DNA of 40,077 bases from Candidatus Zixiibacteriota bacterium. GTDB taxonomy: Bacteria > Zixibacteria > MSB-5A5 > WJJR01. The position numbers and the translations under genes are program-made. Positions 168 through 40,077 of the stretch are shown piece by piece. Below the pieces are notes generated by a model that did no database searches, had not been told where the DNA came from, and saw nothing but the letters and a program-made list of their open reading frames with translations. The stretch is from the NCBI GenBank assembly GCA_016235085.1, contig JACRMA010000030.1, forward strand, positions 1-40,077, written 5' to 3'. Positions within the stretch are counted from its first letter, which is position 1, and the number at the start of each line of letters is the position of its first letter.

Positions 168-1460
168 TTAGGCAGGAACCGGGGCCGACTGCAAGGTCTT
201 TTTCAGCCAGTCGGTCGTCGACGATTTCGGGCGAACGATCGGGTAACCCATTGCCCGGGCGATCACCGCCTGCGAGCAAATACCCAGCGCCCGCGAAACG
301 GAGAACAGCACCGTGTAGTAGGAGAACTCGGTCAGTCCGTACTTATAGAGCAGCGCACCGGAGCCGGCATCGACATTAGGCCACGGATCCTTGATCTTCT
401 GCACCTGCTTCAGAACATTTGGCACCACATCGAACACCTTCGCCACGATCTGGAATGCCTCGTCCTTGGCACAATACTTCTTGCCGAATTCGAGGAACGC
501 ATCAAAGCGCGGGTCGGTGATACGCAGCACTGCGTGGCCATACCCCGGCACCACTTTGCCCGACTGCAGCGTTTCCCACGCGTACTTCTCAAGCTGCTCG
601 TTGGTCGGCACACCGTTGAATTTCTTGCGGGTCTCCAGCACCCACGCCAGACATTCCTGGTTGGCCAGCCCGTGGAGCGGGCCCGCCAGACCGTTCAGCC
701 CCGCCGACAATGCGTAATACAGATCGGAGAGCGCCGAATTGACTGTGGCCGAGGAGAACGCCGAAACGTTGCCGGACTCGTGATCCGAATGCAGCACGAG
801 GTACAGTCGCATCAGACGGGCAAAATCACCGGACGGATCGGGAATGCCCAGCATGTGGACATAATCCGCCGACCAATCCAGATTCGTGTCGCTGTTGATG
901 CGCGGGCCCTTTTCAAAGCGCATCCGGTACACGCCGGCCGCTATCGCCGGAAGGACGGCGATGATGTTGAGCGCATCTTCGAGCGTGGCAACCCAGTAAT
1001 CGTCCTTCTTCATCCCCTCGTCGTACCGCTTGCGGAATGCCGACTCGCGCTCCATGCACAGAATCGCAGTGTCAAACATGCACATCGGGTGGGAATCCTT
1101 GGGCATCGCTTCCAGCACTTTCCAAACATAGTCCGGTACCTTGGCGCGCTTCTTCAGGTCCATTTGCAGAGAATGCAGCGAACCCTCGTCCGGCATCGAC
1201 CCGGTGCAAAGCAGCCAGAAGATTTCTTCGGGCAGACGGTCGGTGAGATCCTTGACCGGGATACCGCGAATAATGAGACCCTTGTCCGGTTCCACCGATG
1301 AGGTGTAGCACACGGCGCCACGGACTCCCCGCATCCCGCCATACACCTGGGATAGGGTAACTTTCCCTACCACGTCTTCCCCGTGGGCTTTGAGGAATTC
1401 TTTTACGTCATCCCGTAAAGCCGGGATTTGTTTTGCCATTGTCTCCTGCAGTGTCGCCAT
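168..1460 (-). CDS. gltA: Citrate synthase
   Basis: Translation from MATLQETMAKQIPALRDDVKEF; motifs GLAGPLHGLANQECLAWV, VPGYGHAVLRITDPRF and SRALGICSQAVIARAMGYPIVRPKS typical of citrate synthase; ORF extends to 1619 but the internal ATG at 1460 fits best. Confidence 0.93.
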   Translation of the reverse strand: MATLQETMAKQIPALRDDVKEFLKAHGEDVVGKVTLSQVYGGMRGVRGAVCYTSSVEPDKGLIIRGIPVKDLTDRLPEEIFWLLCTGSMPDEGSLHSLQMDLKKRAKVPDYVWKVLEAMPKDSHPMCMFDTAILCMERESAFRKRYDEGMKKDDYWVATLEDALNIIAVLPAIAAGVYRMRFEKGPRINSDTNLDWSADYVHMLGIPDPSGDFARLMRLYLVLHSDHESGNVSAFSSATVNSALSDLYYALSAGLNGLAGPLHGLANQECLAWVLETRKKFNGVPTNEQLEKYAWETLQSGKVVPGYGHAVLRITDPRFDAFLEFGKKYCAKDEAFQIVAKVFDVVPNVLKQVQKIKDPWPNVDAGSGALLYKYGLTEFSYYTVLFSVSRALGICSQAVIARAMGYPIVRPKSSTTDWLKKTLQSAPVPA

Positions 1461-1821
1461 GGCGATTCTCCTTGTCCTCTCCCGCCCCATCCGGTGCGGG
1501 GAAAGAGTTATAGTACAGTCAGGCACTCGTTTTCGGCGCTCGGATTTTCCAACTTGAACTTCAGGTTCACGACCTATTACTCTACGTTTCGGCATCCTGA
1601 TTCGTGAATTAATTAACAATACTTGGTACCCTTCTCATTGCTTGGAATCAAGCCGATTCTGTCAATCTTACCCATAAAGCTGACAAAATGCCCATGGCGC
1701 CCAAAGCGATTTTGCCACCGGTGGCTTTTATCTGACCGGCGTACGTATTACCTTGCGGATGTCTACCCGTTGAATACCCCATGCAGAGGTGTTTGAATCG
1801 GTGGATGAAGGGGAATTGGCC

Positions 1822-4140
1822 ATGATCAAACGAGAAGAAGCACTCGAATACCATCGTCGTGCACGGCGTGGCAAGATCCAGGTCACACCCACAAAACCTT
1901 GTATGACGCAACTCGACCTGTCGCTGGCGTACACGCCCGGTGTGGCCGAGCCGTGCCGCGAGATCGAAAAAGATCCCGAGGCCGCATTCATGTACACCGC
2001 CAAGGGCAACCTGGTCGCGGTCATCTCCAACGGAACCGCGGTCCTCGGATTGGGACACATAGGCGCGCTCGCCGGGAAACCGGTCATGGAAGGCAAGGGC
2101 GTACTGTTCAAACGGTTCGCCGATATCGATGTGTTCGACATCGAGGTCGATGAGCTTGACCCGGAGAAACTCGTCCAGATCGTCAAGTCGCTGGAGCCGA
2201 CCTTCGGTGGAATCAACCTCGAAGACATCAAGGCCCCGGAGTGCTTCTACGTTGTGGAAAAACTCAAAGAAATCATGAAGATCCCGGTCTTCCACGATGA
2301 CCAGCACGGCACCGCGATCATTTCCGGCGCCGCCCTGCTCAATGGCTGCGAAATCGTGGGCAAGAATCTCGACAAGGTCAAAGTTGTCTTCAACGGCGCG
2401 GGAGCCGCCGGCATCGCCTGCGCGAACCACTATGTGCGTCTGGGCGTCAAACTGGAGAACATCATACTCTGCGACACCAAAGGCGTGGTCTACAAAGGAC
2501 GCACCGACGGAATGAATCCGTACAAGGCCAAATTCGCCTCGGCCACGACGGCGCGGACGCTCCAGCAGGCTATGGAAGGTGCCGATGTCTTTTGCGGCTG
2601 CTCGGTTGCCAACACGGTGACCAAGGACATGGTACGCGGGATGGCGAAAAATCCCATCGTGTTCGCCATGGCCAATCCCGATCCGGAAATCACCTACCCC
2701 GATGCCAAGTCGGCGCGCAACGACGTGATCATGGCAACGGGACGGTCAGACTATCCCAATCAAGTCAATAACGTCCTCGGATTTCCCTTCATCTTCCGAG
2801 GGGCTCTCGACGTGCGCGCCCGTGCCATCAATGATGAGATGAAGATTGCGGCGACGCACGCTCTCGCATCGCTGGCGAAGCAGCCTGTGCCGGAGTCGGT
2901 GCAGGCGGCCTACGGCGGCGCCGAATTCACCTTCGGGCCCGACTACATCATTCCCAAACCCTTCGACCATCGGGTGCTCCTCTGGGAAGCCAAAGCCGTG
3001 GCCAAAGCCGCCATGGATACCGGCGTCGCTGGAGTACCAATCGATCTCGACAAGTACACGGAGCAATTGGAAGCGCGTCTGGGACGTTCGCGTGCGGTCA
3101 TGCGTGACGTTATCAATCGCGCCCGCCGCGAACCCAAGCGGATCGTCTTCCCCGAGGGACACGCAGCGAAGATCCTCTATGCCACGCGCACCATCCGTGA
3201 CGAGAAGATCGGCGATCCCATTCTCATCGGCGATCCCGAACGGATCAAAGCCCGCGCGGCCGACCTCAATGTCGACATCGAGGGGCTGGAGATCGTCAAT
3301 CCTGCCACATCGGAGTGGACCGAATCCTTCGTCGATGAGTTCTATCAGTTGCGCTGCCGCAAAGGCTGCACCTTACGTGATGCCCGCCGCGCGGTGGAGG
3401 ACAACCATTACTTCGGACTGATGATGGTGCGCACCGGCAAAGCCCATGGGCTGGTTGCCGGCGCCACGATGCATTACCCCGAAGTCCTGCGTCCGGCACT
3501 GGAGGTCTTTCCCAAATCCGACCACAACGAGAGAGTGGCCGGGATGAACATGCTCATCCTGGAAAACGACATCCTCTTCTTCGCCGACACAACGGTCAAC
3601 ATCGATCCCACAGCGGAGGACCTGGCCGACATCACCCTGACTTGCGCCGCCAACGTGCGCAAATTCGGCATGGAGCCCAAAGTGGCGCTGCTGTCGTTCT
3701 CCAACTTTGGCTCGGTCCGTCATCCCAGTACCGACAAGGTCCGGCGGGCGGTGGAGATCATTAAGGGACGCAACCCCGCTTTGATCGTCGACGGCGAGAT
3801 GCAGGCGGATACCGCGGTGACTCCGGCCATCCTGAATGAGACCTACCCCTTCTCGAAACTCAAGGAGCGGGCGAATCTGCTGATCTTCCCCGACCTGCAG
3901 TCCGGCAACATCGCCTACAAATTGGTCCAGCGGCTCGGCAATGCCGAGATCATCGGGCCACTTTTGGTGGGAATGGAGCGTCCGGTGCAAGTTTTACAGG
4001 TCGGATCGTACACAGTGCGAGATATTGTCCATCTGGCCGCTGTGACCGTGGTGGAGGCTCAGGGACGGGTTCAAAGAGAGTTGTTCATTACCAAAGAGCG
4101 TATTTCCGAACCCGACATCCACGAGGCGATCAAGAGCTAA
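1822..4140 (+). CDS. maeB: NADP-dependent malic enzyme with C-terminal phosphotransacetylase domain (MaeB type)
   Basis: N-terminal malic enzyme ([42 protein letters not shown]) fused to a PTA-like domain ([37 protein letters not shown]); start at [13 protein letters not shown]. Confidence 0.93.
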
Positions 4141-4172
4141 CGCGCTGTTATTCAATGTGTAACGGCAAGAAT

Positions 4173-4200
4173 GGGCGCCCAGTTCCGGGCGCCCTTTTTT
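4173..4200 (+). terminator. Intrinsic terminator after maeB
   Basis: GGGCGCCC-AGTTCC-GGGCGCCC followed by TTTTTT. Confidence 0.9.
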
Positions 4201-5032
4201 GCCCCTGGCATGGTCAACTTGTCATAATACCGTCGAGCTAGGCTGCGCAGTGGGTGCGTAATGCCACTGCGCACTTAAGTCCTTGTGTCACAACATTAAA
4301 AACAGGCGTGCGCAATAAGGCTGCGCAGTCACTACGCACTTTGAGCCTCCGAAACCGTGTGCCAGCTCAAGGCGTTTTTCGTGTAAGTCATTGGCAATCA
4401 ACAAAACGACCTTCAAAATTGCCCTCCAACTTCACGTGGCACGATTGTTGTTATGCATTGTTGCGGCGAGAAATTCCGCGGGTTCCGTCGCGAGACGAAT
4501 CGGGGGATGCGGATCGCCAAAAGCCCCGCCGCCGGATGATGAGATGGAGGGCATCGAATTCACCCCGGCGGTCGGGGCTCATTTTTCGCTCCAACTTGAA
4601 GCAGCAATAACCCGCCAATTCCCCGGCGTGGTTGACAGGTCCTCCTTGACCATCAATCACGAGGGAATAAGTTACCATCCTGACGTGTAGTGCATATGAC
4701 TCCGCCGGCTTGGGGGTGGACAGATTCACGGCGCGAGTCAATCGTTGATCGGCTAATGTTCAGGCAGTTTCGAGTCGTTGGATTCCGCAGACCAAGCTGG
4801 ATTATTGCGAATGTCGGCGTGGTGTTCGTCAGCCGTGATCAGGACCAAGGCGACCGGTACGTTGTCCGCATCCCCGATTTCGACAAAGGCTCACCATTCG
4901 CCTGCAGTATCGCCCTGATAAAAGAGGTGGGCGTCCTCTGGGCTGCGCCCAAGCGATACCGCTCAGCGATCAACCGGACAGCCACCCGACAGCAACAGCC
5001 CTCGCCGCGACCTCTGTCTTGCACGTCAGCAA

Positions 5033-34428: not shown

Positions 34429-35049
34429 AATAGGTCCAATTGGCCCTACAGGTCCTATTCTTCCTTCCTTCGGGCGTCGGTCCGCGCTTTGTACAGCCGC
34501 TCCGTGAATCCACCCTCCTTGAGAAAGGCCCGCTCCAACTGCCGGAGCTGCTGATCCAACAGGTAGCAGGTTTGGTGGATGAGGCAGATCACAGTGTTCG
34601 CCGCCACTTCCGCAGGAGCCTCTTCGATATGGGCCCTATAGGTCCTATAGGACCTATCTTCTTCGTAGGCCAATCGCCTCACGGCTTGCGCCGTCGCGTG
34701 GTCTTTCCCCCAGAGCGGCAGATCCCGCTGCCGGAGGAAGTCCTGATAGTCCAGGAGCAGTTCCTCCAGGCTGGCTCGCGCGACACCCACCAGTTTCAGT
34801 TCCGTCTTCTTGGATGTTCCCGAAGCCTGACTTCCCTCAGCGATATTCTGCCGCCCGCTCCGCGCCGACTGTACCATCTGATCATGAGTGCGTGACCGCT
34901 TCTCAATGAAGCGATCACAGAATTTGACGGTGGCGTCGTACACCAGCTCCGACTGCTGAAAGGACTTCAGGCTCTTGTAGCCCCCATGTGCTGGAATGAT
35001 CTCTGCCATGAGTATGGGTCCTATAGGTCCAATAGGTCCTATTCTAAAA
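34423..35049. mobile_element. Putative mobile unit carrying a four-helix-bundle gene
   Basis: 12-bp perfect inverted repeats TTTTAGAATAGG (34423-34434) / CCTATTCTAAAA (35038-35049) and triplicated 9-bp arrays of GGTCCTATA type at both ends and inside. Confidence 0.45.
34455..35009 (-). CDS. Four helix bundle protein (S23/Avd-like) with suffix domain
   Basis: SLKSFQQSELVYDATVKFCDRFIEKRSRTHDQMVQSARSGRQNIAEGSQASGTSKKTELKLVGVARASLEELLLDYQDFLRQRDL is characteristic of this family. Confidence 0.88.
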   Translation of the reverse strand: MAEIIPAHGGYKSLKSFQQSELVYDATVKFCDRFIEKRSRTHDQMVQSARSGRQNIAEGSQASGTSKKTELKLVGVARASLEELLLDYQDFLRQRDLPLWGKDHATAQAVRRLAYEEDRSYRTYRAHIEEAPAEVAANTVICLIHQTCYLLDQQLRQLERAFLKEGGFTERLYKARTDARRKEE

Positions 35050-38232: not shown

Positions 38233-38243
38233 GGGTTACCGAG

Positions 38244-38274
38244 AATCCCCCCCGATCCTCTACCGGGGGGGATT
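38244..38274 (+). repeat. Perfect 11-bp inverted repeat with C7/G7 arms
   Basis: AATCCCCCCCG-ATCCTCTAC-CGGGGGGGATT; hairpin without a clear U-tract. Confidence 0.7.
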
Positions 38275-38308
38275 ACTCATTTCCAGAATAAGAAAAAGGG
38301 AGGTACGG

Positions 38309-39367
38309 ATGGCTACACCTGGCAAGCTCTTCAATGATCTGTTAGAGAGAATTGAACCGCCAGATGCACGTGCAAAGAAGGCAGTCAAACTACCGACCCG
38401 AGTGCGTGCGCATTTGGAGACGAGTGAGAAGCTTGGAGCTGTTGAGCCTTACACTCTGTTGACAGGTTCATATAAGAGACACACTGCCATCGGAGAGATT
38501 AAAGATGTAGACATCATGGTGTTCCTTGACCCGAAGATGAAGGACGAGAAGCCCGAAGTGGCTTTCTCGCTGTTAAGGGACGCGCTGAACGACCTGCCAG
38601 GACGACTAAAGACCGACATCACTCCGCAAAGAAGATCTATCAGAGTCACGCTCGAGGATCAGGACTTCACTCTCGATCTGGTCCCCTGTGTCGCGCCCTT
38701 TGGCACAGAACAGCCACTCCTGGTCCCTGACAGGCCGCGGGAGCAGTGGATCTGGTCAGACCCTCTTGGTTATGCCGCTGCTCTGAGCGACTTGAACGGA
38801 AAGCGCTACGACATCGTCGTGCCAATGATCAAGCTTCTAAAGGCCTGGCGGGATGGACGCAGGATCTACATGCGCCCAAAAAGCTATTGGATCGAATGCC
38901 TCGTCTACTCAGTTCTCTCCGCAGAGGGTGTTGTCAGCAAGGGCGATTCGCATGCAACCGTGATCTCGCGCGTATTTGACGCTGTACACCAGCGCTTCGC
39001 CTGGGCACTAAACCAGAACGATGTTGTTCCGCAGATTCTTGATCCGCGGTTAGGCAACAACGTCGCATCCGGTTGGGAGCGTGGGCACTTCGAGGCCTTT
39101 ATGAACAATCTTTCCAAGAGCATGAAACTTGCGCACGACGCCTTAGCCACAAGCGAGGATGATGAGGGAAAGAAAGAGGCGGTGCGGCTGTGGACGGAGG
39201 TATTCGGCGAGAAATGGTTCGAGGGTACGATCTACGCAGAAGCTATGAGGACGGCCTCCGGCGTGAGTGCAGGTACTGTCGTTGTGCGATCTACAGGTCT
39301 GCTCGCACCGATAGGTGGACGTGAGAAAGGGTTCGCGATCCCTGAGCACAGATTCTATGGCGCGTAG
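38309..39367 (+). CDS. CD-NTase-like nucleotidyltransferase (SMODS type; CBASS cyclic-oligonucleotide synthase)
   Basis: RBS GGGAGGT and ATG at 38309; LLTGSYKRHTAIGEIKDVDIMVFLD (GS...DxD) with third acidic residue in FTLDLVPCV; SYWIECLVYSVL C-terminal helical region. Confidence 0.85.
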   Translation: MATPGKLFNDLLERIEPPDARAKKAVKLPTRVRAHLETSEKLGAVEPYTLLTGSYKRHTAIGEIKDVDIMVFLDPKMKDEKPEVAFSLLRDALNDLPGRLKTDITPQRRSIRVTLEDQDFTLDLVPCVAPFGTEQPLLVPDRPREQWIWSDPLGYAAALSDLNGKRYDIVVPMIKLLKAWRDGRRIYMRPKSYWIECLVYSVLSAEGVVSKGDSHATVISRVFDAVHQRFAWALNQNDVVPQILDPRLGNNVASGWERGHFEAFMNNLSKSMKLAHDALATSEDDEGKKEAVRLWTEVFGEKWFEGTIYAEAMRTASGVSAGTVVVRSTGLLAPIGGREKGFAIPEHRFYGA

Positions 39368-39815
39368 ACGTCTTATGCCGCGCTTTCGCATCCGGATCCC
39401 CCGCGATATCGGATACCAACGAGTCGCAATGGAAGTAATGTTCCCATCGCTGAAATTCAAGAACAGATGGGGGGCGAGAGGGAATCGCGGACATTCCTTT
39501 CCTCGTTGGGAGGGCAACCTGACACCTCGGAAGGGCGGATCAACATACTTCGTCCGAATAGAAGAGCAGCCTCCGAGTAGGCCGAAGGTCTATGTGATCA
39601 AGCCATCATTACCCAAGACAACGCCACACCGGTACCCTGACGGCGCACTCTGCCTGTACTACCCTGCCGACAACTGTTGGCGAACTGGCGACCTGATTGC
39701 TGAGAAGATTGTGCCCTGGACTGCGGAGTGGCTCTGCTTCTACGAGATTTGGGAGCAAACAGGAGTATGGTTCGGTGCATCCGTGACACATACCGGCCCA
39801 AAGGATTGCATCTAG
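39357..39815 (+). CDS. Stand-alone E2-like protein (type II-short CBASS type)
   Basis: Overlaps the CD-NTase stop; HRYPDGALCLYYPADNCWRTGDLIAEKIVPWTAEWLCFYEIWEQTGVWFG with E2-like Cys in the LCLYYP context; exact start uncertain (39357 or 39375). Confidence 0.72.
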   Translation: MARRRLMPRFRIRIPRDIGYQRVAMEVMFPSLKFKNRWGARGNRGHSFPRWEGNLTPRKGGSTYFVRIEEQPPSRPKVYVIKPSLPKTTPHRYPDGALCLYYPADNCWRTGDLIAEKIVPWTAEWLCFYEIWEQTGVWFGASVTHTGPKDCI

Positions 39816-39828
39816 TAGGAGGATTGGG

Positions 39829-40077
39829 ATGGCAAAGGCAGATCTCTTAACTGTGTTCCTTCAATTACAGAAGAAGATGGTCGCAGAATTGGAAATGACA
39901 AGCAAGACAGTAGACCATCCCGGTGCCAAAGGCACGGGAACCGAATTGAACTGGTTAAGAATGTTCGGAACATACTTACCACACCGTTATCGTGTTACTA
40001 AAGGATTTGCACTAGACTGCGAGGGGAAAAAGAGTGAGGAAATCGACATTCTTATCTATGACAGACAGTACTCCCCT
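39829..40077 (+). CDS. N-terminal fragment of a DUF6602-like protein, truncated by the window edge
   Basis: AGGAGG RBS at 39817 and ATG at 39829; MAKADLLTVFLQLQKKMVAELEMTSKTVDHPGAKGTGTELNWLRMFGTYLPHRYRVTKGFALDCEGKKSEEIDILIYDRQYSP, open to the last base. Confidence 0.7.
   Translation, partial: MAKADLLTVFLQLQKKMVAELEMTSKTVDHPGAKGTGTELNWLRMFGTYLPHRYRVTKGFALDCEGKKSEEIDILIYDRQYSP

Follow-up and report, generated by a model that had tools for sequence, protein, structure and literature searches.

In Serratia marcescens, a type II-short (E2-only) CBASS was reportedly described by Yan et al. in 2024; it is said to have a CdnG-type cyclase, which its E2 reportedly trims before conjugation. To our knowledge, this cGAMP-type system of Serratia is the one E2-only system in which the E2 chemistry has been studied. 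Cyclase-cyclase conjugation has been proposed as the activation step for the E2-only type (PMC11153139), and in E1-E2 systems the cyclase ends with a conserved Gly or Ala (PMC10097602). On the signaling side, the Bacillus cereus cyclase BcCdnD naturally drives the effector Cap4; the 3'3'3'-cA3 that it makes can activate the nuclease NucC as well (PMC13424991), which responds to cA3 (PMC8682760). Here we analyzed a window of 40,077 nucleotides (the whole stretch of DNA under study) from a Candidatus Zixiibacteriota bacterium, and suggest that it very probably carries a complete three-gene type II-short CBASS, made up of a CD-NTase, a lone E2 and NucC, which works as proposed below.

The first-pass annotation of the window had reported three tightly spaced, co-directional genes at 38309-40077, with groEL as the next gene upstream, and had taken them for a CBASS-like anti-phage operon. 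Both the layout and the assignment hold: the genes are separated by gaps of 7 and 13 nt, groEL precedes the cyclase gene (Table 1), and the cyclase, the lone E2 and NucC together confirm, at the level of homology, that this is CBASS. The annotation had also considered the operon to be cut by the window edge. This is correct in that nucC, with 83 codons inside the window, is still open at its end, but the edge is the start of a 50-N scaffold gap (contig positions 40078-40127) and not the end of the contig, which has 76,175 bases. When the contig was followed past 40077, as the annotation had proposed, nucC resumed in frame beyond the gap and was complete. Because the gap conceals part of the gene, an unbroken frame cannot be shown there, and alignment with homologs suggests that the stretch really missing amounts to only a few codons. 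On the 3' side, nucC is followed by a gene for a periplasmic sugar-binding protein and then by ABC-transporter genes. Since the next gene thus belongs to a sugar ABC transporter, the operon is complete with exactly three genes. No further effector was found downstream of nucC in the contig past the window, and no E1, JAB/Cap3, HORMA or TRIP13 genes occur in the operon or nearby, where the neighbors are groEL and the sugar ABC transporter.

A G+C-rich hairpin in the interval between groEL and the cyclase gene probably ends groEL transcription. The hairpin region folds with -35.1 kcal/mol over a 94-nt stretch (z -1.9); since a T-run scan for a terminator gave no match at this hairpin, we can only infer the terminator role. 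The G+C content across the three genes is 0.45-0.56, compared with about 0.59-0.62 in groEL, and this low G+C fits an operon that was acquired horizontally and placed between groEL and the transporter operon. Two further observations concern the contig. The downstream sugar-binding protein gene contains a second N gap (contig 41319-41402), so the scaffold here has been assembled from several pieces. Elsewhere in the window, a minus-strand gene at 34455-35009 has a weak match (5.6e-07, just under the Pfam cut-off) to the four-helix-bundle family of 23S rRNA intervening sequences; repeats of the TATAGGTCC type flank it on both sides, and another copy lies within its coding frame (window positions 34430-35045).

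Table 1. Features of the CBASS operon and its upstream flank (window coordinates).
Feature	Coordinates	Strand	Basis or remark
G+C-rich hairpin AATCCCCCCC/GGGGGGGATT, groEL-cyclase interval	38241..38278	+	probable groEL terminator, setting the operon apart from the chaperonin genes
Ribosome-binding site GGGAGG, cyclase gene	38298..38303	+	sequence
CD-NTase, 352 aa	38309..39367	+	PADLOC Cyclase 5.6e-62; Pfam SMODS 6.4e-15; BcCdnD
TGSY active-site motif, residues 52-55	38462..38473	+	alignment
Catalytic Asp pair DVD, residues 66-68	38504..38512	+	invariant in alignment
Third catalytic Asp, D123 (LDL)	38675..38677	+	invariant in alignment
Cyclase tail HRFYG-A, predicted E2 substrate	39347..39364	+	aromatic-x-G also present in E2-only cyclases from further phyla
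Stand-alone E2-like protein (short Cap2), 146 aa	39375..39815	+	PADLOC E2 6.7e-35; family profile
Putative catalytic Cys93 in H-x(6)-LCL	39651..39653	+	invariant among 11 aligned E2-only proteins
Ribosome-binding site AGGAGG, nucC	39817..39822	+	sequence
5' part of nucC (cA3-activated endonuclease, DUF6602 domain)	39829..40077	+	continues past gap to contig position 40620

The first gene had been read as a CD-NTase with intact GS...DxD and a distal Asp, and this reading is borne out by the PADLOC and Pfam matches, by the solved relatives and by the kept motifs. Its closest solved relative is BcCdnD (9sa4; 4.1e-25, residues 6-303), and the clade D cAAG synthases 7ljl and 7d48 match at 6e-11. 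In the alignment, all catalytic residues of CD-NTases (GS, D-x-D and the third Asp) are intact. The annotation had named a first ORF without the CD-NTase fold as the case that would speak against it; homology to solved CD-NTases argues for the opposite. Structures predicted from alignments of five sequences reached a pLDDT of 39.8 for the cyclase and 40.1 for the E2, too poor to be used. The cyclase is the one SMODS protein in the genome. As to its product, a Thr in the first position of the XGSX motif marks cA3 makers such as P. aeruginosa CdnD, and cAAG makers have QGSI; lid 2 is occupied by His in cA3 makers and by Gln in cAAG makers (PMC13424991). The Thr of TGSY and the Ser found at lid 1 (Thr in others) appear to agree with cA3 makers. 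Lid 2 is Tyr, which is neither His nor Gln, so the product, which we predict to be cA3, is not certain.

For the second gene, the earlier description as a stand-alone E2-like protein with a Cys motif, accompanied by neither E1 nor JAB, stands. Although a Pfam search with the protein gave no match, a profile built from it and ten relatives matches the solved Serratia CBASS E2 (8hsb) at 1.6e-29, with UFM1-conjugating enzymes ranked below as weak matches. His85 is invariant, like Cys93, in the alignment of the 11 E2-only proteins. Among 134 genomes of the same phylum, the E2 occurs only in this one.

The cyclase itself bears a tail associated with such E2s. E2-only cyclases from several phyla have a terminal aromatic-x-Gly followed by 1-8 variable residues, with HRFFG, KFHG, HLFYG and TFYG as the counterparts elsewhere of the HRFYG-A found here. 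F-x-G occurs within the final 15 residues of 13 out of 21 E2-only cyclases (the window cyclase included, and some being near-duplicates) and in none of three type I cyclases. The type III cyclase of Methylobacterium contains an FFG, which was considered as a tail motif and rejected, as it is part of the core fold. A Gly set back from the cyclase end fits trimming by the E2 ahead of conjugation, of the kind reported for Serratia.

The first-pass annotation described the third gene as DUF6602-like with its own strong ribosome-binding site, and proposed it as an effector of an unusual kind. All of this can be kept except the unusual kind. The portion inside the window matches DUF6602 in Pfam (5.3e-16), the PADLOC NucC profile (6e-29) and E. 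coli NucC (6p7o; 3.5e-16). For the whole gene, the PADLOC NucC match covers the full length (1.5e-80), and among solved structures Serratia NucC (7zgv) is best at 2.6e-51, followed by E. coli NucC at 3.3e-46. When aligned to 6p7o, the third gene has residues identical to D73, E104, K106, R53, Y81 and T226 of E. coli NucC, the first three of which we take, after Lau et al. 2020, to be catalytic and the other three to be cA3 contacts. The D...E-x-K active site, like that of restriction enzymes, is made up of IDI, encoded in the window, and IEVK, encoded beyond the gap, and LPHR, RQYSP and GTAP align at the cA3-pocket positions. By homology, then, the third gene is NucC, the known cA3-activated DNA endonuclease of CBASS and type III CRISPR. 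With NucC in third place, and with no other effector downstream, the effector is one of the best-characterized in CBASS, and the locus is to be classed as type II-short (E2-only) CBASS, its effector being a classical one. Among the 134 genomes of the phylum, none but this one has a close NucC, and three others score 1e-29 or weaker.

Two other readings of this gene have to be weighed. It might be taken for a DUF6602 nuclease that differs from NucC and represents a new kind of effector, in view of its Pfam match, a label without function, and of an NCBIfam search that gave no match for the window fragment. However, this reading is refuted by the full-length homology to NucC and the conserved catalytic and cA3-contact residues, and we give it next to no credence. 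DUF6602 is the Pfam name for the NucC domain, and it is common for nucC genes among the plasmid matches listed to bear DUF6602 as their sole annotation (records with 'nucC: DUF6602 domain-containing protein' also occur), which explains why the effector was taken as unusual. The label thus hides NucC, and an apparently unknown effector becomes a known one. Alternatively, NucC might work for a type III CRISPR system encoded at another site of the genome, or for CBASS and CRISPR alike, its adjacency to the cyclase being incidental; its best solved match, 7zgv, is a type III CRISPR-associated NucC. NucC is common to CBASS and CRISPR (PMC8682760), but we consider this very improbable here. No Cas10 was found by two models in this genome (93% complete) in a search covering Cas10, Cmr and Csm: there was no Cmr2/Cas10 match, and a weak Csm1 match on contig 42, considered as a Cas10, was rejected because it stems from the HD domain in an RNase Y-like gene. 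The search thus gave no CRISPR system that could supply cA3. Moreover, nucC begins 13 nt past the E2 stop, in the same direction and with its own ribosome-binding site, as would suit the effector of this CBASS.

For the cyclase product, the chemistry of the E2 and the protection against phage, we take relatives as the guide and propose the following scheme. Upon phage infection, the E2 would, via Cys93, process the cyclase and conjugate it through its C-terminal tail, which would raise cyclase activity. The activated cyclase would make cyclic tri-AMP (cA3), whose binding to NucC trimers would lead them to pair into hexamers; the hexamers would cut double-stranded DNA throughout the cell, and the infected cell would die before phage release. 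In this way, the E2 chemistry of Serratia may be carried over to a clade D-like cyclase. Conjugation could also act in the opposite direction: rather than activating the cyclase, the E2 might restrain it by attaching it to a host target, like B. cereus Cap2 with PspA. Such a role was proposed for the B. cereus conjugate of a related CdnD to PspA, which would prevent activation (PMC11153139). However, the B. cereus system has an E1 domain and the deconjugase Cap3. Both are missing here, which would leave a braking conjugate with no known way of release, and we consider a brake unlikely and favor activation by the E2.

How rare the pairing of a lone E2 with NucC might be can be judged from partial surveys of plasmids and genome contigs, in which no second locus of this kind was found. 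The effectors recognized in about 20 E2-only loci were phospholipases, SAVED nucleases or membrane proteins, namely patatin phospholipases, SAVED-HNH nucleases, 1TM or 4TM proteins and SAVED-PDDEXK. NucC was seen in type I loci of Paenibacillus, Cupriavidus and Rhizobium, in type II-long loci of three Rhodococcus plasmids and in type III loci of Methylobacterium; in Actinomycetota, it occurred in 2 out of 398 genomes, once with a type II-long operon and once with a type I operon. The 60 plasmid matches listed for each of the E2 and NucC have records in common only in Agrobacterium vitis, where the two lie some 36 kb or more apart; rare cases could lie beyond these matches. A scan of genome contigs for the E2 gave only four actinobacterial loci, all without NucC, and there were no relatives of the cyclase, the E2 or NucC in viral contigs and none of NucC in phage records.

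The same plasmids offered some observations of a different kind. Hymenobacter sp. BRD67 carries two different E2-only CBASS on separate plasmids, with 4TM and SAVED effectors. On the Nostoc flagelliforme plasmid pNFSY01 (locus 1069-4444), an mCpol gene and a second gene, a Panoptes-like pair, lie directly upstream of an E2-only CD-NTase/E2, a layout that might pair decoy signaling with CBASS. Three loci on Nostoc and Chroococcidiopsis plasmids have an E2-only CBASS just downstream of a multiubiquitin/E2 operon, whose extra genes are ThiF and DUF6527 in Nostoc and Mov34 in Chroococcidiopsis, so that two ubiquitin-like systems stand repeatedly side by side.

We tentatively suggest, at somewhat less than even confidence, that an E2-only CBASS with NucC is an undescribed combination, in which a lone E2 controls a clade D-like cyclase that makes cA3. 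What is new would then be, mildly, the pairing of known parts, the effector itself being classical. If true, Cap4 and NucC would be interchangeable behind one cyclase-E2 module. With its three genes, the locus also offers a compact test case of cyclase control by a lone E2 that has neither E1 nor deconjugase beside it, and a simple NucC cleavage assay could read out the cyclase product.

Several known systems can be compared with the locus. The type II-short CBASS of Serratia marcescens likewise has a lone E2 beside its CD-NTase, without E1 or JAB, and the E2 families match (1.6e-29), but its cyclase is reportedly of the CdnG type, whereas this locus combines a cyclase nearest to clade D with NucC as the effector. 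The NucC effector and the predicted cA3 signal are the same in the type III (HORMA/TRIP13) CBASS of E. coli MS115-1 and in the plasmid type I, II-long and III NucC loci; other NucC CBASS, however, have no helper, an E1-E2 with JAB, or HORMA, in contrast to the lone E2 found here. The B. cereus type II CBASS provides the closest solved cyclase (4.1e-25), whose cA3 activates NucC as well (PMC13424991), but it uses an E1-E2 Cap2, Cap3 and the effector Cap4 where this locus has a lone E2 and NucC. Finally, the E2-only CBASS on cyanobacterial plasmids (Nostoc PCC 7120 pCC7120beta, Nostoc C052 and Brasilonema) share the gene order of this locus; among the plasmid matches listed, their cyclases rank first (33-35% identity to the cyclase here) and their E2s are among the top ones (38-39%). 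Their effector is a SAVED-PDDEXK (Cap4-like) nuclease (6.5e-72), whereas here it is NucC. Because BcCdnD drives Cap4 and its cA3 also activates NucC, it is plausible that the effector has been swapped behind the same signal, with a cyclase-E2 module serving a Cap4-like nuclease in Nostoc and NucC here.
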